Of a DNA stretch of 35,276 nt, positions 51-31,090 are shown in pieces. Each line of letters opens with the position of its first letter. Within the stretch, counting starts at the first letter, position 1. The notes under the pieces are model-generated. The model saw only the letters and a program-made list of their open reading frames with translations. It was not told the DNA's origin and ran no database searches. Source of the DNA: Paracoccaceae bacterium (GTDB lineage: Bacteria > Pseudomonadota > Alphaproteobacteria > Rhodobacterales > Rhodobacteraceae); the NCBI GenBank assembly GCA_011620265.1, contig WOZM01000222.1, forward strand, positions 1 to 35,276, read 5' to 3'. A program made the translations under genes and the position numbers.

Positions 51-905
51 TCAGCTGAGCAGGAAGTAGGGCGAGACACGAATCGGCCGGTCGAGGCGCA
101 GCGTCACGAACCCGGCGCTGACCGGCGCACTGACCAGAAGCTGCACGACCTCTTCCGAAACCGGGGCGATCGCGTCCGTCCGCGACAGATAGGCGATCAT
201 CAGGAGCAGCGAGGAGCTGTTGACGATATTGCCGGGCGCGCTGAGCCCCGCCGATCCGAACGCATTGTTCATCGCCTCGCGGATCGGCGCGCCACTTTCC
301 TGCATCACCCATTCGTAGCCGGCGAGGGCCGACAGCGCGACCGACGGCGCGGCGCGCAGCGGATGGTCGCGCCGGACCAGCAGCGACACCTTCTCGTCCC
401 GCACCGGCTCGACATCGAAGTCGCGGCTGTCGAATTCCGGCAGGAACCGCGCCAGCGCGAAATCGAGCCGGCCCGAGGCGAGGTCGCGCAGAAGCTGGCG
501 CGACGGGGCGACATCGACGGTGATGTCGGCCCCGGACGCGTTCGCCTTGATGCTCTGGATCGCGGGAACCAGATAGCCGACCGCCGGGCCGGTGACCGCG
601 CCGACATGGACCGAACCGCCGCGCCCGGCGCGCAGGATCGCCACCTCGTGTCCGAGATCGCGCATCTCGCGCAGCATCGCCCGCGCCCGCTTGGCGACCG
701 CCAGACCCACCGCCGTCGGCTCCATCCCCTTCGGATGCCGGAGAAAGAGCGCCGCACCGACTGCCCGTTCGATCTGCGCCAGCATTCGCGACGCCGCCGG
801 TTGGGTCACCGCGATCTCGGCCGCGGCAAGCTGAAGCTGGCCGTGCTCGGCAATCTCGGCCACCAGCCGCAACTGGGCGGGCTTGAGACTCAGTTCGGCC
901 TGCAT
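51..905 (-). CDS. LysR-family regulator, GbpR-like (probable sugar-responsive regulator)
   Basis: This 284-residue protein has a LysR-type winged helix-turn-helix at about residues 5-65 (core AAAEIAVTQPAASRMLAQIE) and a periplasmic-binding-like effector domain from about residue 90. It lies divergent from a chvE remnant. That is the arrangement of Agrobacterium GbpR, which controls chvE-gguABC in response to arabinose or galactose, so the same role is inferred. The ATG at 905-903 leaves a 152-base shared promoter region. The protein ends at PYFLLS. From my memory of the family, relatives continue for roughly 20 residues past this point, so the C-terminal tail may be lost. That would fit the damage in the neighbouring genes, but it has not been tested by alignment. 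The LysR assignment is firm; the effector is inferred from context. Confidence 0.85.
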   Translation of the reverse strand: MQAELSLKPAQLRLVAEIAEHGQLQLAAAEIAVTQPAASRMLAQIERAVGAALFLRHPKGMEPTAVGLAVAKRARAMLREMRDLGHEVAILRAGRGGSVHVGAVTGPAVGYLVPAIQSIKANASGADITVDVAPSRQLLRDLASGRLDFALARFLPEFDSRDFDVEPVRDEKVSLLVRRDHPLRAAPSVALSALAGYEWVMQESGAPIREAMNNAFGSAGLSAPGNIVNSSSLLLMIAYLSRTDAIAPVSEEVVQLLVSAPVSAGFVTLRLDRPIRVSPYFLLS

Positions 906-1057: not shown

Positions 1058-1846
1058 ATGACATTCAGACCTTTCGCCATCGCGATGGCGATGTGCGCCT
1101 CGGTATTCGCCTTCGAGGCCGCCGCAGAGGGCACCGTGGGCATTTCCATGCCGACGAAATCCTCGGCCCGCTGGATCTCGGACGGAAACTCGATGGTGGA
1201 GCAATTCACCGCCGCCGGTTACGAGACCGATCTGCAATATGCCGAAGACGACATTCCGAACCAGCTTGCCCAGATCGAGAACATGATCACCAAGGGCGTC
1301 GACGTGCTGGTGATCGCCGCCGCCTCCGGCATCAAGGTCATCGCCTATGACCGGCTGATCCGCGACAGCGGCAACGTCGACTATTACGCGACCTTCGACA
1401 ACTTCAAGGTCGGCGTCCAGCAGGCGACGAGCCTCGTGAACGGCCTCAAGGAGCGCTTCGGCGGCTCGCCCGACGACAACAACGCCTATTTCTTCTAAGA
1501 CGGCGCGATGAGCGTGCTTCAGCCCTTGATCGACGCGGGCACCGTCGTCATAGGCTCGGGCCAGACGGGCATGGATACCGTGGGCACGCTGCGCTGGGAC
1601 GGTGCGGTCGCGCAGTCGCGGATGGACAACCTTCTGTCGGCCAACTACACCGACAAGCCGGTGCACGGCGTCCTCAGCCCCTATGACGGACTTTCCATCG
1701 GCATCCTGTCGTCGCTGAAGGGCGTCGGCTACGGTTCGGGCGATCTCAAGATGCCGATCGTCTCGGGCCAGGACGCAGAAGTGCCGTCGGTGAAGTCGAT
1801 CCTTGCCGGCGAGCAGTATTCCACCGTCTTCAAGGACACCCGCGAG
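1058..1846 (+). pseudogene. chvE: chvE remnant: periplasmic sugar-binding protein, stop-interrupted and 3'-truncated
   Basis: ChvE binds monosaccharides such as arabinose, galactose and glucose in the periplasm for the GguAB transporter. The ATG at 1058 has a GAGGAAGAG ribosome site upstream, and a signal peptide ends near AFEAAA. Matching stretches include [53 protein letters not shown] and [14 protein letters not shown]. Compared with Agrobacterium ChvE as I recall it, about 14 residues are missing near 1318-1332 and about 10 near 1441-1462, both in frame. A TAA at 1496-1498 falls where family members have Tyr (FFYDGAMSV); the reading resumes in the same frame with DGAMSV. The last 80 or so residues are gone: at 1844-1847 the text passes directly into the middle of an ABC ATPase. 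A translation restart at ATG 1508 would give a fusion without a signal peptide. No functional binding protein is expected. Confidence 0.88.
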
Positions 1847-3285
1847 ATCCACGCGCTCCTGGGCGAAAACGGCGCCGGCAAATCGACGCTGATGAAGGTC
1901 CTCTCGGGGGTCTATCCCGCCGGCAGCTACGAGGGCGAGATCCTCTTCGACGGAAGGCCCGCCGCCTTTTCCGGCATCGCCGACAGCGAGGCGAAGGGCA
2001 TCATCATCATCCACCAGGAACTGGCGCTGGTGCCGCTCCTGTCGATCGCCGAGAACCTCTTTCTCGGCAACGAGCGCGCGAAAGGCGGCGTCATCGACTG
2101 GCGCGACACGTTCCGGCGCGCGGAAGGCCTCCTGAAGAAGGTCGGCCTTGCCGAAACGCCCGCGACGCTCGTCGACAGCCTCGGGGTGGGCAAGCAGCAG
2201 CTCGTGGAGATCGCGAAGGCGCTCTCCAAGGACGTGCGGCTCCTGATCCTCGACGAGCCGACCGCCGCCCTCTCCGAGGCCGACAGCCAGGCGCTGCTCG
2301 ACCTGCTTCTCGACCTGAAGGCGCAAGGCGTGACCTCGATCATCATCAGCCACAAGCTGAACGAGGTGCGCCGCGTCGCCGACACGGTGACGGTGATCCG
2401 CGACGGCGCCACCGTCTCGACCATGGACGCGCGGACCGAGGACATCACCGAGGGCCGCATCGTCCGCGACATGGTCGGCCGCGACATGGCGCATCGCTAT
2501 CCGGAACGCGACCGCCGCGCCGGCGAGGTGATCCTGGAACTCCGTGACTGGAACGTCTGGCATCCGGAGCATTCCGGCCGGCAGGTGATCAAGGCCGCGA
2601 ACCTGACCGTGCGCAAGGGAGAGGTCGTGGGCATCGCCGGGCTGATGGGATCGGGCCGCACCGAACTGGCGATGAGCCTTTTCGGCCGGAGCTATGGTCG
2701 CCACATCTCCGGCGAGGTCAGCATCAACGGCCGCCCGGCCGATGTCTCGACCGTGCCGAAGGCGATCGCCGCAGGCCTCGCCTACGTGACCGAGGACCGC
2801 AAGTCGCTGGGCCTCATCCTCGACGAGACGATCCAGCGCAACATCACCCTGACGAATCTGCCGGCGGTGTCGTCGCGGGGCGTCATCACCGAGGCGAAGG
2901 AAACCCGGGTCGCCGAGAAGTACCGCGCCGCGATGAATATCCGCACGCCGTCGGTCTTCCAGAAGGTGATGAACCTCTCGGGCGGCAACCAGCAGAAGGT
3001 CGTCCTGTCGAAATGGCTCTTCGCCGGACCGGAGGTTCTGATCCTCGACGAGCCGACGCGCGGCATTGATGCGGCGCGAAGTTCGAGATCTACGGGATCA
3101 TCAACACGCTCAGCGCCGAAGGCAAAGGGGTGATCATGATCTCCTCGGAAATGCCGGAACTGCTGGGCATGTGCGACCGCATCTACGTGATGAACGAAGG
3201 CGCGCTTGTCGGCGAACTGACGGCCGCCGAGGCGAGCCAGGAGCGGATCATGTCGCTCATCGTGACGGATCAGGAGGGGACGGGA
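1847..3285 (+). pseudogene. gguA: gguA/mmsA remnant: sugar ABC transporter ATPase, 5'-truncated and frameshifted
   Basis: This is a tandem-domain sugar ABC ATPase of the MmsA/GguA class, the energy subunit for ChvE-dependent uptake. Roughly the first 33 residues are missing. It begins at [20 protein letters not shown] (first Walker A), in frame with the chvE remnant. The first Walker B is [15 protein letters not shown]. The second domain carries the degenerate GLMGSGRTE site usual for these transporters, then LSGGNQQKV and [12 protein letters not shown]. At about 3071 the reading shifts: GATGCGGCGCGAAG is seen where GATGTCGGCGCGAAG would keep VGAKFEIYG in frame, so one base appears lost. The C-terminal end ([20 protein letters not shown]) continues in another frame from about 3072 to about 3285. 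The frameshift removes the switch-histidine end of domain 2. The permease gene gguB that should follow is absent. Confidence 0.88.
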
Positions 3286-3333
3286 ATGGCGCGAGCGGAA
3301 CGCGGCGAAGCGGGCACGGCGGGCGGGATCGGC

Positions 3334-4200
3334 CGGGGCGAGAGCCTTGCGGACGCGGTCGCGTCCCACGGGATCGGCGCGCCGGTCGATCCGGCGGCGG
3401 CCTATGCCGAGGGGCGGATGCTGCTGCCCGTCGATCACCCCGACCCCGCGCATCTGCATCTGACCGGGACCGGCCTTACCCATCTAGGCAGTGCCGCGAC
3501 CCGCGACGCGATGCATGCCAAGGCCGATCCGGCCGAGATGACCGACAGCATGAAGATGTTCCGCATGGGTCTTGAGGGCGGCAGGCCGGCGGCGGGCAAG
3601 GTCGGGGCCGAGCCGGAATGGTTCTACAAGGGCAACGTCCATGCCGCCACGGCCCCCGGCCAACCGCTCCTCTCGCCCGGCTTCGCCAAGGATGCGGGCG
3701 AGGAGCCGGAGATCGCCGGCCTCTACCTCATCGGCCCCGACGGCACGCCCTTCCGCCTCGGCTTCGCGCTCGGCAACGAATTCTCCGATCACGTGACCGA
3801 GCGGGGCAACTACCTCTGGCTCGCGCATTCCAAGCTCCGCCCCGCCGCCTTCGGGCCGGAGCTTCTGGTCGGCGACCTGCCCGCCGATATCCGGGGCCAG
3901 AGCCGCATCCTGCGCGGCGGCAAGGCGTTGTGGCAAAAGCCGTTCCTGTCGGGCGAGGCGAACATGTCGCACAGCCTTGCCAACCTCGAGCATCACCATT
4001 TCAAATACGACATCTTCCGCCAGCCCGGCGATCTGCACGTCCACTTCTTCGGCACCGCGACGCTGTCCTTCGCCGACGGGATCAGGGCGGAGGCCGGCGA
4101 TGTGTTCGAGATCGAGGCGCCCGGCTTCGGCCTGCCCTTGCGCAACCCCCTTGCCATCGCCGTGCCGGACGCGCACGCGGTGGCCGTGCAACCCCTCTGA
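3334..4200 (+). pseudogene. gguC: gguC remnant (AraD1/FAH-superfamily), N-terminally truncated and fused to the gguA tail
   Basis: From about GESLADAV to the stop at 4198-4200 there are about 288 residues typical of GguC, a fumarylacetoacetate-hydrolase-superfamily protein also named AraD1. Recognisable stretches are [60 protein letters not shown] and [13 protein letters not shown]. GguC is usually about 330 residues; around 45 N-terminal residues are missing. The open frame runs continuously from the shifted gguA tail (ATG at 3130), so the only possible product is a GguA-tail/GguC hybrid. The joining segment at about 3285-3333 ([17 protein letters not shown]) resembles neither family. GguC-type proteins are proposed to act on 2-keto-3-deoxy sugar acids, a role I infer from context. 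The core domain looks intact, so residual activity cannot be excluded. Confidence 0.82.
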
Positions 4201-4209
4201 GGTTCTCCG

Positions 4210-5952
4210 ATGACCTTCAAACCCGCGAAATGGCCCCGGAAACTCCGCTCCCAGCAATGGTTCGGCGGCACCTCGCGCGACGCGATCTACCATCGCGGCT
4301 GGATGAAGAACCAGGGCCTGCCGCATGACCTCTTCGACGGTCGCCCGGTGATCGGCATCCTCAACACCTGGTCGGAGCTGACCCCCTGCAACGCGCATCT
4401 CAATGACCTCGCCCAGCGCGTGAAGCATGGCATCTACGAGGCCGGCGGCCTGCCGGTCGAAGTGCCGGTCTTCTCGGCCTCCGAATCCGGCTTCCGCCCG
4501 ACCGCGATGATGTTCCGCAACCTCGCCGCGATGGCGGTCGAGGAGGCGATGCGTGGCCAGCCGATGGATGGCTGCGTCCTCATGGTCGGCTGCGACAAGA
4601 CCACGCCGTCCTTGCTGATGGCTGCCGCCTCCACCGACCTGCCGTCGATCGTCGTCACCGGCGGGCCGATGCTGAACGGCTACTTCCGGGGCGAACGCGT
4701 CGGCTCCGGCACGCATCTGTGGAAGTTCTCCGAGGCGGTGAAGGCGGGCGAGATGACGGCCGGGGACTTTCTCGATGCCGAAGCCTCCATGTCCCGCTCG
4801 CCGGGGTCGTGCAACACGATGGGAACCGCTTCCACGATGGCGTCGATGGCCGAGGCGCTCGGCATGGCGCTTTCGGGCAATGCCGCGATCCCGGCGGTGG
4901 ATTCGCGCCGCCGCGTCATGGCGCAACTCACGGGCCGGCGCATCGTGCAGATGGTCAAGGACGACCTGAAGCCCTCGGACGTGCTGACGAGGCAAGCCTT
5001 CGAGAACGCTATCCGCACCAACGGCGCCATCGGCGGCTCCACCAATGCCGTCGTCCACCTTCTGGCCATCGCCGGCCGCGTCGGGGTCGACCTGACGCTC
5101 GACGACTGGGACGCCTTGGGGCGCAACGTGGCGACCATTGTCAACCTCATGCCCTCGGGAAAATACCTGATGGAGGAGTTCTTCTATGCCGGCGGCCTGC
5201 CGGTCGTGCTGAAGCGGCTCGGCGAGGCGGGGCTGCTCAACAAGAACGCGCTGACCGTCGCGGGCGAGACGATCTGGGACCAGGTCAGGGACGTCGTGAA
5301 CTACAACGAGGACGTGATCCTGCCGGTCGAAAAGGCGCTGACCCGGCAGGGCGGCATCGCGGTCCTGAAAGGCAACCTCGCGCCGAAGGGGGCGGTGCTG
5401 AAACCCTCCGCCGCGAGCCCGCACCTTCTGAAGCATCGCGGCCGCGCGGTCGTCTTCGAGGATATCGACGACTACAAGCGCCGCATCGCCGACGAGGCGC
5501 TCGACATCGACGAGACCTGCGTGATGGTCCTGAAGAACTGCGGGCCGAAGGGCTATCCCGGCATGGCCGAGGTCGGCAATATGGGTCTGCCGGCGAAGGT
5601 TCTTCGCAAGGGGATCACCGACATGGTGCGGATCTCGGACGCGCGCATGTCGGGCACCGCCTATGGCACCGTCGTCCTCCACACCTCGCCCGAAGCCGCC
5701 GCCGGCGGGCCGCTCGCCGTGGTGCGCGACGGCGACATGATCGAGCTCGACGTGCCGAACCGGCGCCTGCATCTCGACATTTCCGAGGCCGAACTGGCCG
5801 CGCGGCTCGCCGCCTGGACGCCGCCGCAGGACAAGCCCGCGTCGGGCTACGCCTGGCTGCACCAGACCCATGTCGAGGGGGCCGATACCGGCGCCGATCT
5901 CGACTTCCTGAAAGGCTGCCGCGGCGCACCGGTCGGCAAGGAGTCGCACTGA
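4210..5952 (+). CDS. L-arabinonate / D-galactonate-type dehydratase (IlvD/Edd family)
   Basis: The product is 580 residues long, the length of the Rhizobium leguminosarum L-arabinonate dehydratase, and is very similar to it throughout as I recall that sequence. It removes water from L-arabinonate, D-galactonate or D-fuconate to give the 2-keto-3-deoxy acid. The three [2Fe-2S] ligands of this subclass are present: Cys60 (LTPCNAHL), Cys128 (VGCDKTTPS) and Cys201 (SCNTMGTAST). Lys130 directly after the second Cys is the expected carbamylated magnesium ligand. The C-terminal HLDISEAELAARLAAW and GADTGADLDFLKGCRG blocks are intact. The ATG follows GAGG by seven bases, nine bases after gguC stops, and the next gene overlaps the stop by one base. 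Both its neighbours on the damaged side are broken, but this gene shows no lesion. Confidence 0.93.
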   Translation: MTFKPAKWPRKLRSQQWFGGTSRDAIYHRGWMKNQGLPHDLFDGRPVIGILNTWSELTPCNAHLNDLAQRVKHGIYEAGGLPVEVPVFSASESGFRPTAMMFRNLAAMAVEEAMRGQPMDGCVLMVGCDKTTPSLLMAAASTDLPSIVVTGGPMLNGYFRGERVGSGTHLWKFSEAVKAGEMTAGDFLDAEASMSRSPGSCNTMGTASTMASMAEALGMALSGNAAIPAVDSRRRVMAQLTGRRIVQMVKDDLKPSDVLTRQAFENAIRTNGAIGGSTNAVVHLLAIAGRVGVDLTLDDWDALGRNVATIVNLMPSGKYLMEEFFYAGGLPVVLKRLGEAGLLNKNALTVAGETIWDQVRDVVNYNEDVILPVEKALTRQGGIAVLKGNLAPKGAVLKPSAASPHLLKHRGRAVVFEDIDDYKRRIADEALDIDETCVMVLKNCGPKGYPGMAEVGNMGLPAKVLRKGITDMVRISDARMSGTAYGTVVLHTSPEAAAGGPLAVVRDGDMIELDVPNRRLHLDISEAELAARLAAWTPPQDKPASGYAWLHQTHVEGADTGADLDFLKGCRGAPVGKESH

Positions 5953-6887
5953 TGAAGATCGCCCTCGTCGGCATCGGCAAGATCGCCCGCGACCAGCATG
6001 TCCCCGCCATCGCCTCCTCGCGCGATTGGGAACTCGCGGCCGCCGTCTCGCGCCACGGCGGAGTGGAGGGGGTGGAGACCTTCCCCGACCTCGCCACGAT
6101 GCTGGCCGAGCGACCCGGGATCCAGGTCGTCTCGCTCTGCCTGCCGCCGGTGCCGCGCTTCGCCCATGCGGCGGCGGCCTTGCGCGCGGGCCGGCACGTG
6201 ATGCTGGAAAAGCCGCCCGGCGCGACGCTCTCTGAATGCCACGCACTGGCGGCGATGGCCCGCGACATGGGCCTCACGCTCTACGCCACCTGGCATTCGC
6301 GCGAAGCGGCGCAGGTCGCCCCGGCGAAGGCCTGGCTCGAGGGCAAGACCATCCGCCGCGTGACCGTCACCTGGAAGGAGGATGTCCGGCGCTGGCATCC
6401 CGGCCAGGACTGGATCTGGCGGCCGGGCGGGCTCGGCGTCTTCGATCCGGGCATCAACGCGCTCTCGATCCTGACCGAGATCCTGCCGGAGCCGATCCAC
6501 CTCACCCGTGCCCGGCTGACCTGTCCGGCCAACCGCCAGACCCCGATCGCCGCCGATCTCGAATTCGCCCATCCCGGCGGCGCCGAGGTCTCCGCTGCCT
6601 TCGACTGGCGGCAGGAGGGCAACCAGATCTGGACCATCGAGGTCGCGACCGATACCGGCGCGCTGCTTCTCGCCGATGGCGGCGCGCGGCTTGCGCTCGA
6701 CGGCAAGGAGCAGCCGGCGCCGGCCGGGGAAGGCGTGCCACTTGGCGGCGAATATCCCCGGCTCTATGCGAAGATGGCGGCTCTCGTCGCGCGGGCCGGC
6801 ATCGACATGGACCTTGCGCCGATGACACATGTGGCCGATGCCTTTACACTCGGCGAACGCATCGTCACCACCCCCTTCCACGACTGA
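5952..6887 (+). CDS. D-galactose / L-arabinose 1-dehydrogenase (Gfo/Idh/MocA family)
   Basis: This 311-residue NAD(P)-dependent enzyme oxidises the anomeric carbon of D-galactose or L-arabinose to the lactone, the first step of the non-phosphorylating pathway. An N-terminal Rossmann motif (LVGIGKIARDQHVPAI) is followed by EKPP at residues 86-89. The signature WKEDVRRWHPGQDWIW-RPGG and VFDPGINALS is nearly the same as in the Pseudomonas galactose 1-dehydrogenase and Azospirillum L-arabinose dehydrogenase. The start codon overlaps the dehydratase stop by one base (TGATG), so the two are translationally coupled. Full length and no lesion. Its product would go to the lactonase encoded at 9423. 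Galactose versus arabinose preference cannot be read from the sequence; homologues take both. Confidence 0.9.
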   Translation: MKIALVGIGKIARDQHVPAIASSRDWELAAAVSRHGGVEGVETFPDLATMLAERPGIQVVSLCLPPVPRFAHAAAALRAGRHVMLEKPPGATLSECHALAAMARDMGLTLYATWHSREAAQVAPAKAWLEGKTIRRVTVTWKEDVRRWHPGQDWIWRPGGLGVFDPGINALSILTEILPEPIHLTRARLTCPANRQTPIAADLEFAHPGGAEVSAAFDWRQEGNQIWTIEVATDTGALLLADGGARLALDGKEQPAPAGEGVPLGGEYPRLYAKMAALVARAGIDMDLAPMTHVADAFTLGERIVTTPFHD

Positions 6888-6902: not shown

Positions 6903-7898
6903 ATGCCAGACAAGACCGACCTCGCCCTTCGTGGCCAGCACCTGATCGCGGGCACCCGGACCGGGGGGACGGAGACCTTCGTCCCCGCCCACGGCCCGGC
7001 CCGCGACTTCGCCGTCGGCACGCCGGCGCTCGTCGGGCAGGCCTGCGCTGCGGCCGAGGAGGCGTTCTGGTCCTATGGCTACGCGACCCGCGCCGAGCGT
7101 GCCGCCTTCCTCGACACCATCGCCGACGAGATCGAGGCGCGGCCCGACCCGATCCCCTTCTTCGGCGAGTTGGGCAGCGTCAACCCGATGTTCCTCCTGC
7201 CCGGGGCTGTTCGGGCGCGCGGGGCGGAGATCGCCGGGGGCTGGGCCGGATCGCTGACGATGGGGGCCGGGCAGTTCTGCACCAATCCCGGCATCGCCAT
7301 CCTGATCGACGGCCCCGACGCCGATGCCTTCACCGACGCCGCGACCGAGGCGCTGAAACCGGTCGGCGCGCAGGTCATGCCGACCGGCGGCATTGCCGTC
7401 GCCTACCGTGCCGGTCGCGACCGGGTGGCCGGAACGAGGGGCGTGCGGGAGGTGCTGGCCTCGATGTGCGACCGTCGCGATGCCACCCCCTATCTCTTCG
7501 CGACGACGGGTCGCGAGTGGCTCGCCAACCACGCGCTCGGCGCAGAGGTCTTCGGCCCCCCCGGCCTCATCGTGCGCGTCGCGGACGCGGCCGAGATGGA
7601 GGCCGTCGCCCGCAGCCTTCGGGGCCAGCTGACCTGCACGCTTCACCTCGACGCGGGCGACACGGCGCTCGGGCAGCGGTTGATGCCGATCCTTGAACGC
7701 AAGGCGGGGCGGGTGCCCGCCCACGGCTTCCCGACCGGGGTCGAGGTCCGTGACGCGATGGTGCATGGCGGCCCCTACCCCGCCTCGACCAATTTCGGCG
7801 CGACATCGGTCGGCACGCTGCCGATCCGGCGGTTCCTGCGCCCGGTCTCGTACCAGAACCTGCCGGGGGCGCTCCTGCCCGAGGATCTGCGCGGGTGA
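6903..7898 (+). pseudogene. Gutted alpha-ketoglutarate-semialdehyde-type aldehyde dehydrogenase (internal in-frame deletion)
   Basis: The 331-residue open frame starts and ends like an alpha-ketoglutarate semialdehyde dehydrogenase, which is normally about 500 residues. N-terminal matches are LIAG, PAHGPARDFAVGTPALV and AEEAFWSYG. C-terminal matches are EVFGPPGLIVRV and MVHGGPYPASTNFGATSVGT. Between residues 80 and 81 (about nucleotide 7143) the text jumps from DEIEAR directly to PIPFFGELGSVNP. About 165 residues that carry most of the NAD-binding fold are missing, including the GFTGS glycine motif. The catalytic Glu89 (FGELGS) and Cys126 (GAGQFCTNPG) remain, so the frame is open but the cofactor site is gone. 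The TGA overlaps the next gene's GTG by four bases, so the frame may be kept for coupling. I call it non-functional as a dehydrogenase; a reading error is less likely because the frame is preserved. Confidence 0.85.
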
Positions 7899-8818
7899 GC
7901 GAAGCGATGCCCCGCCCCGACTGGATCGCCGCCGACTGGGGCACCAGCAGGCTCCGCGTCTGGGCGATGGCGCCGGACGGCACCCCGCTTGCCGGGGCGC
8001 GATCGGACGATGGCATGGCGCGGCTCGCCCCCGAGGCGTTCGAGCCGGCCCTTCTGGGCCTCGTCTCGCCCTGGCTTGCCGGGCCTGCGACGATTCCGGT
8101 GGTGATCTCGGGCATGGCCGGCGCCCGGCAGGGCTGGCGCGAGGCGCCTTACCGGCCGGTGCCTTGCACCCCTCTCGGGCCGGAGATGCTGACGTTCGAC
8201 GGCATCGACCCGCGCCTTGCCGTCGCCATCGTCCCCGGCCTCAGCCAGGCCAGACCCGCCGACGTGATGCGCGGCGAGGAGACGCAGATCGCCGGCCTCC
8301 TCGCCGCCGCCCCGGGCTTCGACGGCATCGCCTGCCTGCCCGGCACCCATACCAAATGGGCGCAGATCAGCGCCGACGAGGTCGTCGGCTTCCAGACCTG
8401 CATGACGGGCGAGTTGTTCGCGCTGCTCAGCGGCCAGTCGGTTCTGCGCCATTCGGTCGGGGCCACCGGCTGGAACGCCGCGGGCTTCGCCGAGGCGGTG
8501 GACGACGCCATCGGATCGCCCCAGAAGATCGCCGCGCGGCTCTTCGGACTCCGGGCCGAGGCGCTGCTCTCCGGCCTTGCGCCGGATGTGGCGCGGGCGC
8601 GGCTCTCGGGGCTTCTCATCGGGCTCGATCTTGCGGCGAGCCGGCCCTACTGGCTTGGCCAGGAGATCGTGCTGATCGGCGAGGGTCGGCTGGCCGGCCA
8701 CTACGCCGAAGCCCTCGCGGCGCAGGGGGCTGCGGTGCGCGAGGCCGATGCCACCGAAATCACGCTCGCCGGCCTGCGCGCCGCGCGGGCGCTCCTTGCA
8801 AGGAAGGGCTGGCCATGA
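7895..8818 (+). CDS. dgoK: 2-dehydro-3-deoxygalactonokinase (DgoK)
   Basis: DgoK phosphorylates 2-keto-3-deoxy-D-galactonate with ATP to give KDPGal, in the cytoplasm, in the De Ley-Doudoroff pathway. The 307-residue protein has the family's N-terminal phosphate loop IAADWGTSRLRVW, the ISGMAGARQGW block, RGEETQIAG, LPGTHTKWAQI and FQTCMTGELFALL, and a C-terminal half (LLIGLDLAASR, IVLIGEGRLAGHYAEAL) of normal length. It starts with GTG at 7895 inside GTGA, overlapping the aldehyde dehydrogenase stop by four bases, and ends with a four-base ATGA overlap with dgoA. It looks intact. Together with the dehydratase and dgoA it gives a complete galactonate branch. Confidence 0.92.
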   Translation: MSEAMPRPDWIAADWGTSRLRVWAMAPDGTPLAGARSDDGMARLAPEAFEPALLGLVSPWLAGPATIPVVISGMAGARQGWREAPYRPVPCTPLGPEMLTFDGIDPRLAVAIVPGLSQARPADVMRGEETQIAGLLAAAPGFDGIACLPGTHTKWAQISADEVVGFQTCMTGELFALLSGQSVLRHSVGATGWNAAGFAEAVDDAIGSPQKIAARLFGLRAEALLSGLAPDVARARLSGLLIGLDLAASRPYWLGQEIVLIGEGRLAGHYAEALAAQGAAVREADATEITLAGLRAARALLARKGWP

Positions 8819-9426
8819 GCGGGCGAAACATCGTCGCGATCCTGCGCGGCATCCGCCCCGAAGAGTGCGAGGCCGTCACCGAAGCCCTGATCGCGGCCGG
8901 GATCGCGAAGATCGAGGTGCCGCTCAATTCGCCCGCGCCCTTCGTCAGCATCGAGCGCGTGGCCCGCCGGTTCGGCGACGCGGCGCTGATCGGCGCTGGC
9001 ACGGTGCTTTCGCCCGAGGATGTCGGCCGGGTGAAGGATGCGGGCGGCGCGCTCATCGTCTCGCCCGACTGCAACCCCGACGTCATCGCGGCGGCGAAGA
9101 CGCTCGGCCTCCTGTCCTATCCCGGGGTGATGACGCCGACGGAATGCTTCGCGGCGCTGCGCGCCGGGGCCGACGGGCTGAAGATCTTTCCCGCCGAGCT
9201 TGTCGGGCCGACCGGCCTCAGGGCGGTCCGCGCGGTGCTGCCGGCGGAGACGGACGTGCTCGCCGTCGGCGGCGTGAGTGCCGCGAACCTGGCCGAGTGG
9301 CGGGCGGCGGGGGCGACGGGGTTCGGCATCGGCACCGCGATCTTCCGCCCGGGCGACGGCGCGGCGGAGGTCGCCGCGAAGGCCGCCCGCATCGTCGCCG
9401 CCTACGACACGGTGTTCGCGCCGTGA
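8815..9426 (+). CDS. dgoA: 2-dehydro-3-deoxy-6-phosphogalactonate aldolase (DgoA)
   Basis: This 203-residue class I aldolase of the KDPG/KDPGal family cleaves KDPGal into pyruvate and glyceraldehyde 3-phosphate. The Schiff-base lysine is Lys123 in GADGLKIFPAE and the general acid/base Glu34 lies in KIEVPLNSP. IVAILRGI at the N-terminus, GAGTVL, SPDCNPDVI and VLAVGGVSAANLAEW match DgoA rather than Eda. The ATG overlaps the dgoK stop (ATGA) and the stop overlaps the lactonase GTG (GTGA), so dgoK, dgoA and the lactonase form a tightly coupled unit. The length is normal and the active site complete. Confidence 0.92.
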   Translation: MSGRNIVAILRGIRPEECEAVTEALIAAGIAKIEVPLNSPAPFVSIERVARRFGDAALIGAGTVLSPEDVGRVKDAGGALIVSPDCNPDVIAAAKTLGLLSYPGVMTPTECFAALRAGADGLKIFPAELVGPTGLRAVRAVLPAETDVLAVGGVSAANLAEWRAAGATGFGIGTAIFRPGDGAAEVAAKAARIVAAYDTVFAP

Positions 9427-10286
9427 CGGCTGCGCTCTTCGACCCCCGGCCCTGCGCCCTCGGCGAAGGCGCCTTCTGGCATCCCGAACGCGGCCAGCTT
9501 TTCTGGTTCGACATCCTCGGGCAGAGGCTTTTCAGCGTTGACGAGACCGGCCCGCGCCAATGGGTCCTTGACGAATGCGCCTCGGCCGCCGGCTGGATCG
9601 ACCGCGACACGCTCGTGATCGCCTCCGAGACCGGACTTTTCCGGTTTTCGCCGGAGACCGGCGCGCGGGCGTTGCTGGCGCCCCTGGAGGCGGACAATCC
9701 CGCGACACGCTCGAACGACGGCCGCGCCGATCCCTTCGGCGGGTTCTGGATCGGCACGATGGGCAAGCGGGCGGAAGCCGGGGCGGGTGCCATCTACCGC
9801 TACTTCGGCGGCAGGATCGAAGCGCTTTATCGTGGCATCACCATCCCCAACGCGATCGCGTTCGCCCCCGACGGGCGGCGCGCCTATTTCGCCGATACCG
9901 CGACGCAGCGGATCATGGTGCAGGCGCTCGATACCGAAGGCTGGCCGACGGGCGGGGCGGAGGTCTTCGTCGACCTGGAACCCGAAGGGCTTCACCCGGA
10001 CGGCGCGGTCGTGGACGGCGAAGGCTTTCTCTGGAACGCGCAATGGGGCGCGGGACGGGTCGCCCGCTATGCGCCGGACGGGCGCTTCGACCGGGCGATC
10101 GCGGTGCCTGCGCGCCTCGTCACCTGCCCGGCCTTCGGTGGTGAGAAGCTCGACCGGCTCTACCTCACGACGGCGCGGCAGGGGCTGGACGCGGAGGCGC
10201 TTCGCGCCGACCCGCTGGCCGGGCAGACCTTCGTCGCCGATCCCGGCGTCGCGGGACGGCCGGAGCCGCGCGTGCGGCCCGGCTGA
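9423..10286 (+). CDS. SMP-30/gluconolactonase-family sugar lactonase
   Basis: The 287-residue six-bladed propeller of the SMP-30/LRE family most likely hydrolyses D-galactono- or L-arabino-lactone made by the dehydrogenase at 5952. The predicted metal ligands are all present: Glu15 (LGEGAFWHP), Asn98 (SNDGRADPFGGFWIGTM), Asn143 (TIPNAIAFAPD) and Asp193 (LHPDGAVVDGEGFLW). The GTG start at 9423 overlaps the dgoA stop in GTGA. The gene ends three bases before the stop codon of the convergent kinase gene, leaving no room for a terminator between them. The C-terminus (VAGRPEPRVRPG) is as expected for the family. Confidence 0.88.
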   Translation: MTAALFDPRPCALGEGAFWHPERGQLFWFDILGQRLFSVDETGPRQWVLDECASAAGWIDRDTLVIASETGLFRFSPETGARALLAPLEADNPATRSNDGRADPFGGFWIGTMGKRAEAGAGAIYRYFGGRIEALYRGITIPNAIAFAPDGRRAYFADTATQRIMVQALDTEGWPTGGAEVFVDLEPEGLHPDGAVVDGEGFLWNAQWGAGRVARYAPDGRFDRAIAVPARLVTCPAFGGEKLDRLYLTTARQGLDAEALRADPLAGQTFVADPGVAGRPEPRVRPG

Positions 10287-15138: not shown

Positions 15139-15193
15139 CTCCGGTATCCCTTTTCGGTGCATCCTGACCGTCTGTCCCGCCCGGCGGCACGCC

Positions 15194-15258
15194 GGGCAGC
15201 GCCCGACCCGCCCCCCGGGGCGGGCGCTTCTCGCCCACCCTCGGGTCGGGCGCTGCCC
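15194..15258 (-). repeat. 17-bp perfect inverted repeat between the two permease genes
   Basis: GGGCAGCGCCCGACCCG at 15194-15210 is the exact reverse complement of 15242-15258. The 31-base loop holds a further GGGCG/CGCCC stem. It lies in the 157-base spacer between the MalF-type stop and the MalG-type start. Such intercistronic stem-loops usually protect the upstream mRNA from 3' exonucleases and lower expression of later genes. No T-run follows on the transcribed strand, so a classical terminator is unlikely. Confidence 0.75.
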
Positions 15259-15295
15259 TTGTCGCTTCTGCGCTGAACGTGCCGGACCATGTCTC

Positions 15296-19041: not shown

Positions 19042-20100
19042 TCAGCCTCCGATCCCGAGCATCCGCCGGTTCGCCGCGTCATCCGCGCCGCTCTCCGCGA
19101 AATCGTCGAAGGCGCGCTCGGTCACGCGGATGATGTGGTCGCGCACGAAGGCCGCGCCCTCCCGCGCGCCATCCTCGGGGTGCTTCATCGCGCATTCCCA
19201 TTCGACCACGGCCCAGCCATCGAAATCGTATTGGGTGAGCTTCGAGAAGACCGCGCTGAAATCGACATGCCCGTCACCGAGCGACCGAAACCGCCCGGCG
19301 CGGTCGATCCACGATTGGTAGCCGCCATAGACCCCCTGCCGCCCGGTCGGATTGAACTCCGCATCCTTGACGTGGAACATGCCGATGCGTTCGTGGTAGA
19401 TGTCTATGTTGTCAAGGTAATCCAGCGCCTGAAGCACGTAGTGCGAGGGGTCGTAGAGCATCTTCGCGCGGGCATGGTTGCCGACGCGGTCGAGGAACAT
19501 CTCATAGGTCACGCCGTCATGCAGATCCTCGCCGGGATGGATCTCGTAGCAGACATCCACGCCCATCTCGCCGGCATGGTCGAGGATCGGCCGCCAGCGC
19601 TTCGCCAACTCGTCGAACGCGGCCTCCACCAGCCCCGCCGGGCGCTGCGGCCAGGGATAGACATAGGGCCAGGCGAGCGCGCCGGAGAAGGTGGCATGGG
19701 CCGTGATCCCGAGATTGCGGCTCGCGGTCAGCGCCATCCTCACCTGCTCCACCGCCCAGTCCTGCCGGGCCCTGGGATTGCCCCGCATCCCGGGCGCCGC
19801 GAAGCCGTCGAAGGCCGCGTCATAGGCGGGATGGACGGCGACGAGCTGGCCTTGAAGATGGGTCGAAAGCTCCGTCACCACGACGCCGTTCTCGGCCGCC
19901 ACGCCCTTGAACGTGTCGCAGTAGTCCTTCGACGACGCGGCGGTGGCGAGGTCGAAGAGCCGCGCGTCCCAGCTTGGCACCTGCACGCCGGCATAGCCGC
20001 AATCGGCGGCCCATCCGGTGATCGATTTCCAGTCGTTGAACGGCGCCGCGTCCCCGGCGAACTGCGCCAGAAACAGCGCCGGTCCCTTGATCGTCCTCAT
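19042..20100 (-). CDS. TIM-barrel sugar isomerase/epimerase (AP-endonuclease-2-like family)
   Basis: The 352-residue protein has the xylose-isomerase-like TIM barrel used by sugar isomerases, epimerases and keto-sugar processing enzymes. Likely metal ligands and acid/base residues are Glu186 (CYEIHPGED), Asp217 and His220 (LYDPSHYVLQ), His243 (FHVKDAEFN) and Glu300 (VVEWECA). The ATG at 20100 follows GAGGGAGGAATGCC. It ends one base before the Gfo/Idh ATG, so the two are coupled and probably act in sequence on one substrate. The family is clear; the exact reaction is not. Confidence 0.85.
   Translation of the reverse strand: MRTIKGPALFLAQFAGDAAPFNDWKSITGWAADCGYAGVQVPSWDARLFDLATAASSKDYCDTFKGVAAENGVVVTELSTHLQGQLVAVHPAYDAAFDGFAAPGMRGNPRARQDWAVEQVRMALTASRNLGITAHATFSGALAWPYVYPWPQRPAGLVEAAFDELAKRWRPILDHAGEMGVDVCYEIHPGEDLHDGVTYEMFLDRVGNHARAKMLYDPSHYVLQALDYLDNIDIYHERIGMFHVKDAEFNPTGRQGVYGGYQSWIDRAGRFRSLGDGHVDFSAVFSKLTQYDFDGWAVVEWECAMKHPEDGAREGAAFVRDHIIRVTERAFDDFAESGADDAANRRMLGIGG

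Positions 20101-29392: not shown

Positions 29393-31090
<1,698 letters not shown>

Follow-up and report, generated by a model that had tools for sequence, protein, structure and literature searches.

Probable recent decay of a chvE-gguABC sugar-transport operon by short deletions and point changes in a Paracoccaceae draft genome

Between positions 1058 and 4200 of the window (the whole stretch of 35,276 nucleotides analysed here, contig C205 of a 309-contig, 3.9-Mb draft that is 95.5% complete with 3.3% contamination), the genes of a chvE-gguA-gguB-gguC sugar-transport operon run into one another in interrupted reading frames. Is this an operon decaying in its genome, or a product of library preparation or assembly? 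The original prediction, made from the sequence alone, had offered erosion by short deletions between small direct repeats or an assembly collapse. We compared the locus with G012 and G014, the nearest relatives carrying the operon (G014 in two contigs), which served as references for lesion calls. Our conclusion is that the locus is probably a recently pseudogenised sugar operon that underwent real decay by short deletions and point changes; it is gene decay of the ordinary kind.

Alignment showed that chvE-gguA-gguB-gguC is intact in both G012 and G014 and that the lesions at the locus are derived relative to both. At least five lesions within about 3 kb had been predicted; eight were found between 1058 and 4200, comprising four deletions (42, 30–33, 367–368, and 1276 bp), two one-base indels, a nonsense codon, and the loss of the gguA stop, and a fifth large deletion lies outside this region, at 7139–7142. 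The N-terminal fragment of chvE (1058..1498, forward strand, 146 codons) matched positions 1–144 of the NCBIfam model NF040907 and ends in a TAA at 1496–1498 (forward strand), a sense codon in both relatives. ChvE lacks two internal stretches of 14 and 10–11 residues, corresponding to a 42-bp in-frame deletion (junction 1315..1321, forward strand) and an in-frame deletion of 30 bp relative to G012 or 33 bp relative to G014 (junction 1456..1463, forward strand).

A 541-aa chimeric ORF (1508..3133, forward strand) follows, in which the C-terminal part of ChvE passes in frame into GguA, with NCBIfam coverage of ChvE positions 149–262 and GguA positions 26–437. Two ChvE segments in one frame, split by the TAA, are therefore present as predicted. 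The predicted in-frame passage into GguA was also found, at 1842–1845, but not into its middle: the entry point is near the N-terminus, at residue 53 of the 528-codon reading of the G012 gene. The 367–368-bp deletion at this junction (1842..1845, forward strand) removed the 3' end of chvE, the intergenic space, and the 5' end of gguA. The ORF ends early because it has lost a base near 3071 that both relatives retain, a loss already noted in the original prediction.

The next chimeric ORF (3130..4200, forward strand) joins the C-terminus of GguA (model positions 457–500), about 16 gguB codons (3286–3333), and GguC without its N-terminus, the last as predicted and seen in both the model match and the alignment. 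Here the gguA stop has become a sense codon (3271–3273), and one base inserted near 3285 brings the gguB start in frame with gguA. A 1276-bp deletion with its junction within 3321..3336 (forward strand) then removed nearly all of gguB together with the 5' end of gguC.

Scored against the family models, the two ChvE pieces reached 174 and 169 bits, below the cut-off of 460 for a complete binding protein (NF040907), and the GguA pieces reached 709 and 60 bits in two ORFs against a cut-off of 810 for a complete ATPase (NF040905), the first 25 model positions being absent. GguC scored 494 bits against a cut-off of 340 (NF040903) and still belongs to its family by this test, with its native N-terminus replaced. 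The permease GguB is reduced to its remnant of about 16 codons, and its best other match in the draft had 40% identity. The transporter cannot work as such because the permease gene is gone and no close copy turned up in the draft, and sugar uptake by ChvE-GguAB would thus have been lost.

The genes around the transporter differ in their state. Upstream and divergent from the operon lies an uninterrupted LysR-type regulator (51..905, reverse strand; Pfam PF00126 and PF03466 over cut-off), positions 1–284 of which aligned to the G014 gene. Downstream, on the forward strand, are an uninterrupted sugar-acid dehydratase (4210..5952; L-arabinonate dehydratase model NF009559, 937 bits, cut-off 882), an uninterrupted Gfo/Idh/MocA-type oxidoreductase (5952..6887; Pfam PF01408), a broken aldehyde dehydrogenase (6903..7898), an uninterrupted 2-keto-3-deoxygalactonokinase (DgoK, 7895..8818; Pfam PF05035, model positions 1–280 of 281), an uninterrupted 2-dehydro-3-deoxy-6-phosphogalactonate aldolase (DgoA, 8815..9426; NF006600 over cut-off), and an SMP-30/gluconolactonase-type gene (9423..10286; tblastn 1–287 of 287 against G012), the last covered by a longer ORF (8748–10286) that carries the Pfam PF08450 match. 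The fifth large deletion, an internal in-frame loss of 528 bp (176 codons) relative to the relatives, lies in the aldehyde dehydrogenase of this same gene run. The intact G012 homologue has 509 aa and matches the solved NADP+ aldehyde dehydrogenase 3v4c over residues 10–509; NCBIfam matches of the window gene, including 2,5-dioxovalerate dehydrogenase, were far below cut-off.

The transporter, the GguC/AraD1-type gene, and the aldehyde dehydrogenase are thus broken, and the dehydratase, oxidoreductase, DgoK, DgoA, and lactonase-type genes are open. In the non-phosphorylative pentose route, as outlined in the consulted excerpt of PMC7374468, 2-keto-3-deoxypentonate dehydratase yields alpha-ketoglutaric semialdehyde, which is then oxidised. 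The broken aldehyde dehydrogenase may have served this oxidation step. With enzyme roles read from family names, the lineage would have lost a pentose branch and one uptake system and kept the kinase and aldolase of a galactose-type route.

Further along the window, about 150–190 bases at 15142–15290 and 19292–19481 have no counterpart at the corresponding sites of G012. We considered a 33-bp difference at 30974 as a lesion and rejected it: it falls within the urease alpha subunit, and the window matches the Pfam N-terminal model of that protein over positions 2–121 of 121. The relatives carry 11 extra codons there, and we take the shorter form in the window to be the usual one.

Among other genomes of the same genus, a long gguA match was found in 11 of 21, and the distribution of the operon across the genus is patchy. 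With G012 proteins as queries and G012 itself counted, gguA and gguB each gave one stop-free match in all 12 loci, frame changes in chvE occurred in a single draft (G004), and only G012, G014, and G021 (3 of 12 loci) had a GguC match above the 50% identity filter. Since the operon is intact in both G012 and G014, the shared ancestor of these two most likely carried an intact operon with a linked sugar-acid pathway. The window differs from its relatives by about 10–17% in the HSPs around the operon. No indel longer than 9 bp separates G012 from G014 over 12.3 kb of the operon region, so the lesions in the window exceed ordinary divergence.

To characterise the deletion junctions, we compared the runs shared between their two sides. 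Against the better-matching relative, the runs at the 42-, 30–33-, 367–368-, 1276-, and 528-bp deletions were 7, 7, 4, 5, and 4 bp, and against the other relative they were 0, 4, 4, 3, and 0 bp; the 42-bp and 528-bp junctions share their runs with G012 and none with G014, and the 4-bp run at 1842..1845 is common with both. The runs at the 30- and 1276-bp deletions were read from the displayed junctions, for which alternative placements score equally, and all are blurred by the 10–17% or so of divergence noted above. A random junction in the operon would show a run of 4 bp or more with a probability of 0.036.

Collapse of a repeated copy during assembly, the other reading originally offered, was rejected. 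The 95.5% complete draft yielded neither a second chvE nor a second gguB, the best other match to chvE having 34% identity, so a second complete chvE copy does not explain the locus. Assemblers use word lengths far longer than runs of 4–7 bp. Repeat collapse is therefore unlikely given such short runs and no second copy, and it does not explain the point lesions.

The deletions also had to be set against the rest of the draft, and stretches of C40, C208, C133, C251, C19, and C232 were compared with the relatives (C133 with G014 only, C251 with G012 only). Four deletions, one of them not clean, were found in about 181 kb, compared with five in 6.8 kb at the operon (Poisson P about 6e-7, a value that is descriptive only, as the locus was picked for its lesions); the 181 kb is an upper bound made of summed lengths, in which unaligned positions and some 15 kb known mostly from search hits are included. 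The deletions cluster at the operon. Left out of the count were intergenic or unclean differences, among them 34 bp in C133, 41 bp in C40 (relative to G012), and unequal unaligned stretches in C19, C133, and C232.

Elsewhere, C40 near 50840 (L124:10838-10844) showed a 1317-bp in-frame deletion in a trimethylamine methyltransferase-type gene, leaving a 94-codon remnant, with an N run beginning about 95 bases on. C208:7020-7029 showed a 411-bp in-frame deletion in a 246-codon gene without a Pfam or NCBIfam match, and C133:41042-41053 a 1266-bp in-frame deletion in an amidase gene with short ends left (relative to G014 only). Near 32260 of C133, the 3' part of bluB (5,6-dimethylbenzimidazole synthase) is replaced, 21 unaligned bases facing 454 in G014, and the junction is not clean. 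Exact shared runs were 1–3 bp in C208 and 4 bp in C133; apparent runs of 10–12 bp at these two sites were rejected as BLAST overlaps. Two families of dispersed repeats (L124:11121-11303 and L124:15202-15320), one of about 165 bp and the other of about 95 bp, occur in many copies in the draft and were seen as short high-identity matches; G012 and G014 both lack the copy at L124 15214-15323 at the corresponding site.

A gene-level scan covered 166 mapped genes (window, 31; C40, 27; C208, 22; C133, 48; C251, 20; C19, 18), with G012 as the reference except for C133, where G014 was used. A nonsense or frameshift change was confirmed only in chvE and gguA, in a scan that short frameshifts near gene ends could escape. 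Flags set aside were a C40 gene broken by a stretch join and an N run, contig-edge genes, genes below 70% identity, and the urease gene.

To estimate when constraint was lost, codon changes were counted by branch with G014 as the outgroup, gguA being treated in separate in-frame segments. For chvE, gguA, and gguC, nonsynonymous to synonymous counts were 20/64 on the window branch and 15/96 on the G012 branch (Fisher P 0.089), and with the aldehyde dehydrogenase added they were 37/93 and 22/121 (Fisher P 0.012). Against the genome baseline, P was 0.08 with the aldehyde dehydrogenase and 0.59 without it, neither being significant, and the intact dehydratase next door shifts in the same way (8/32 vs 7/65). 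The unconstrained fraction of the branch was about 6% (0–14%) without and 8% (2–16%) with the aldehyde dehydrogenase under the G012 ratio, and 1% without and 5% (0–12%) with it under the genome baseline. A gguA count of 20/37 (P 0.003 against baseline) was rejected, since the tblastn alignment had run into an out-of-frame stretch. Depending on the yardstick, the substitutions are consistent with constraint having ended within roughly the final tenth of the lineage, or they show no such loss. From the small unconstrained fraction, decay appears recent relative to the split from G012, a substitution signal that alone would also fit an artefact.

That most lesions would preserve the frame had also been predicted. 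All eight scorable large deletions in the sample did so (six internal and two gene-fusing; bluB was not scorable), but this is largely expected in codon-periodic DNA: identical 4–8-mers at suitable distances in intact genes lie in the same codon phase in 45–100% of pairs (the 100% comes from 3 pairs). The product of the per-gene chances that all joins fall in frame was 0.008, 0.02, 0.04, 0.09, and 0.05 for 4- to 8-mers; these values replaced an earlier, cruder null of 0.41–0.55 for the operon and 0.58–1.0 for part of the dehydratase gene. With so high an expectation, we rejected the kept frame as a strong sign of selection, and because such pairs often share codon phase, in-frame joins do not require strong selection. 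Real decay combined with selection for in-frame deletions, on the grounds that out-of-frame ones would silence the intact downstream genes by polarity, is the alternative that survives best, and we regard it as unlikely. The eight in-frame deletions, with chances of 0.008 and 0.02 for 4- and 5-bp repeats, and the uninterrupted dehydratase, oxidoreductase, kinase, and aldolase downstream agree with it, but the chances rise to 0.04, 0.09, and 0.05 with 6-, 7-, and 8-bp repeats, the nonsense codon and the one-base loss were kept nonetheless, and in-frame scars occur elsewhere in the draft too. A modest contribution of polarity is possible.

It is improbable, more so than selection by polarity, that chimeric molecules in the library, such as whole-genome amplification can generate, or faulty assembly produced the deletions and that the organism's operon is intact. 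Such an origin would accord with the division of the draft into 309 contigs, with the 100-base N runs in two of the nine other stretches inspected, with the C40 deletion lying about 95 bases from one of them, and with the four further deletions (three clean, one less so) in about 181 kb of the rest of the draft, which could have a genome-wide technical cause. It would also accord with a constraint in the remnants close to the genome baseline. Two of the five junctions (42 and 528 bp) share nothing with G014, which speaks against the decay reading. Against an artefact, the genes that hold five deletions within 6.8 kb also show a nonsense codon, the loss of a stop, and two one-base indels, no such small lesion was confirmed in other mapped genes, no duplicate chvE or gguB copy was found in the draft, and the 4–7-bp runs are too short for graph collapse, given the word sizes that assemblers use. 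In addition, about 15 kb of ribosomal-region matches contained no clean internal deletion, a small sample in which C16 and C228 were seen as search hits only. In the same sample, 101 bases of C228 stand opposite 1128 bases of G014.

That the fused frames are functional new proteins (binding-protein–ATPase and ATPase–dehydratase fusions) kept by selection is hardly credible: three long ORFs are left, one starting 9 bases past the TAA and one overlapping the prior stop by 4 bases, and all large joins are in frame, but there is no permease, ChvE is missing internal residues as well as its C-terminal part, and in-frame joins are expected from codon periodicity.

Erosion of the operon by deletions between small direct repeats, as first proposed, is thus well supported by the 4–7-bp runs, the derived state of the lesions, and their clustering with nonsense and one-base changes. 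In the course of events that we propose, the function would have become dispensable before lesions accumulated. Five segments would then have been lost as the DNA was replicated or repaired, probably through RecA-independent slippage or annealing between short repeats. The decay would also include the nonsense codon, the changed gguA stop, and the pair of one-base indels. That the joins lie mostly in frame would be due mainly to codon periodicity, these genes being rich in G+C. A search of three genomes for a Ku gene found none (0 of 3), which makes Ku-dependent end joining unlikely and favours slippage or annealing.

More tentatively, codon periodicity in G+C-rich bacteria may place short repeats in one phase and channel slippage deletions in frame, with genes of this lineage being lost genome-wide as in-frame scars that keep the ends and lack the middle; we consider this generalisation possible and rather doubtful. 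If true, it would offer a general way for decaying genes to yield truncated or fused proteins and not frameshifted pseudogenes. Frame preservation at such loci should be judged against the codon-phase expectation (0.45 to 1.0 here) and not against one third, a point of consequence for anyone who interprets fused ORFs in G+C-rich drafts as functional fusions. The operon appears to have been caught shortly after its loss, with lesions that can still be counted and an intact form readable in relatives.

Among known systems, the locus matches the chvE-gguABC (mmsAB-araD1) multiple-monosaccharide ABC transporter operon in gene order and families, gguABC having been named mmsAB-araD1 in the title of a 2011 paper, as it stands in the reference list of PMC4285021. 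The ChvE of G012 matches the solved chain named ChvE (PDB 3urm) over residues 24–350. Unlike that operon, the locus has lost its permease, and its three remaining genes are shortened and joined to one another. The locus also resembles the De Ley-Doudoroff and non-phosphorylative pentose clusters of Rhodobacterales, in which relatives of the dehydratase, DgoK, and DgoA stand beside a galactose/arabinose-type transporter. In Roseobacter litoralis, the part of PMC3141670 consulted places similar genes in two clusters, discussed for the use of D-galactose and L-arabinose, whereas they form one run here, in which the candidates for the pentose branch (GguC/AraD1 and an aldehyde dehydrogenase) are broken and DgoK and DgoA are uninterrupted. 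For the mechanism, RecA-independent deletion between short direct repeats was reported in E. coli K12 (PMC5426353, in the portion consulted), to which the several independent short-run junctions and the nonsense and frameshift changes seen here are alike. Compared with operon pseudogenisation at short repeats, the present locus differs in its many lesions within 6.8 kb, its few substitutions, and its large joins, all of which are in frame.
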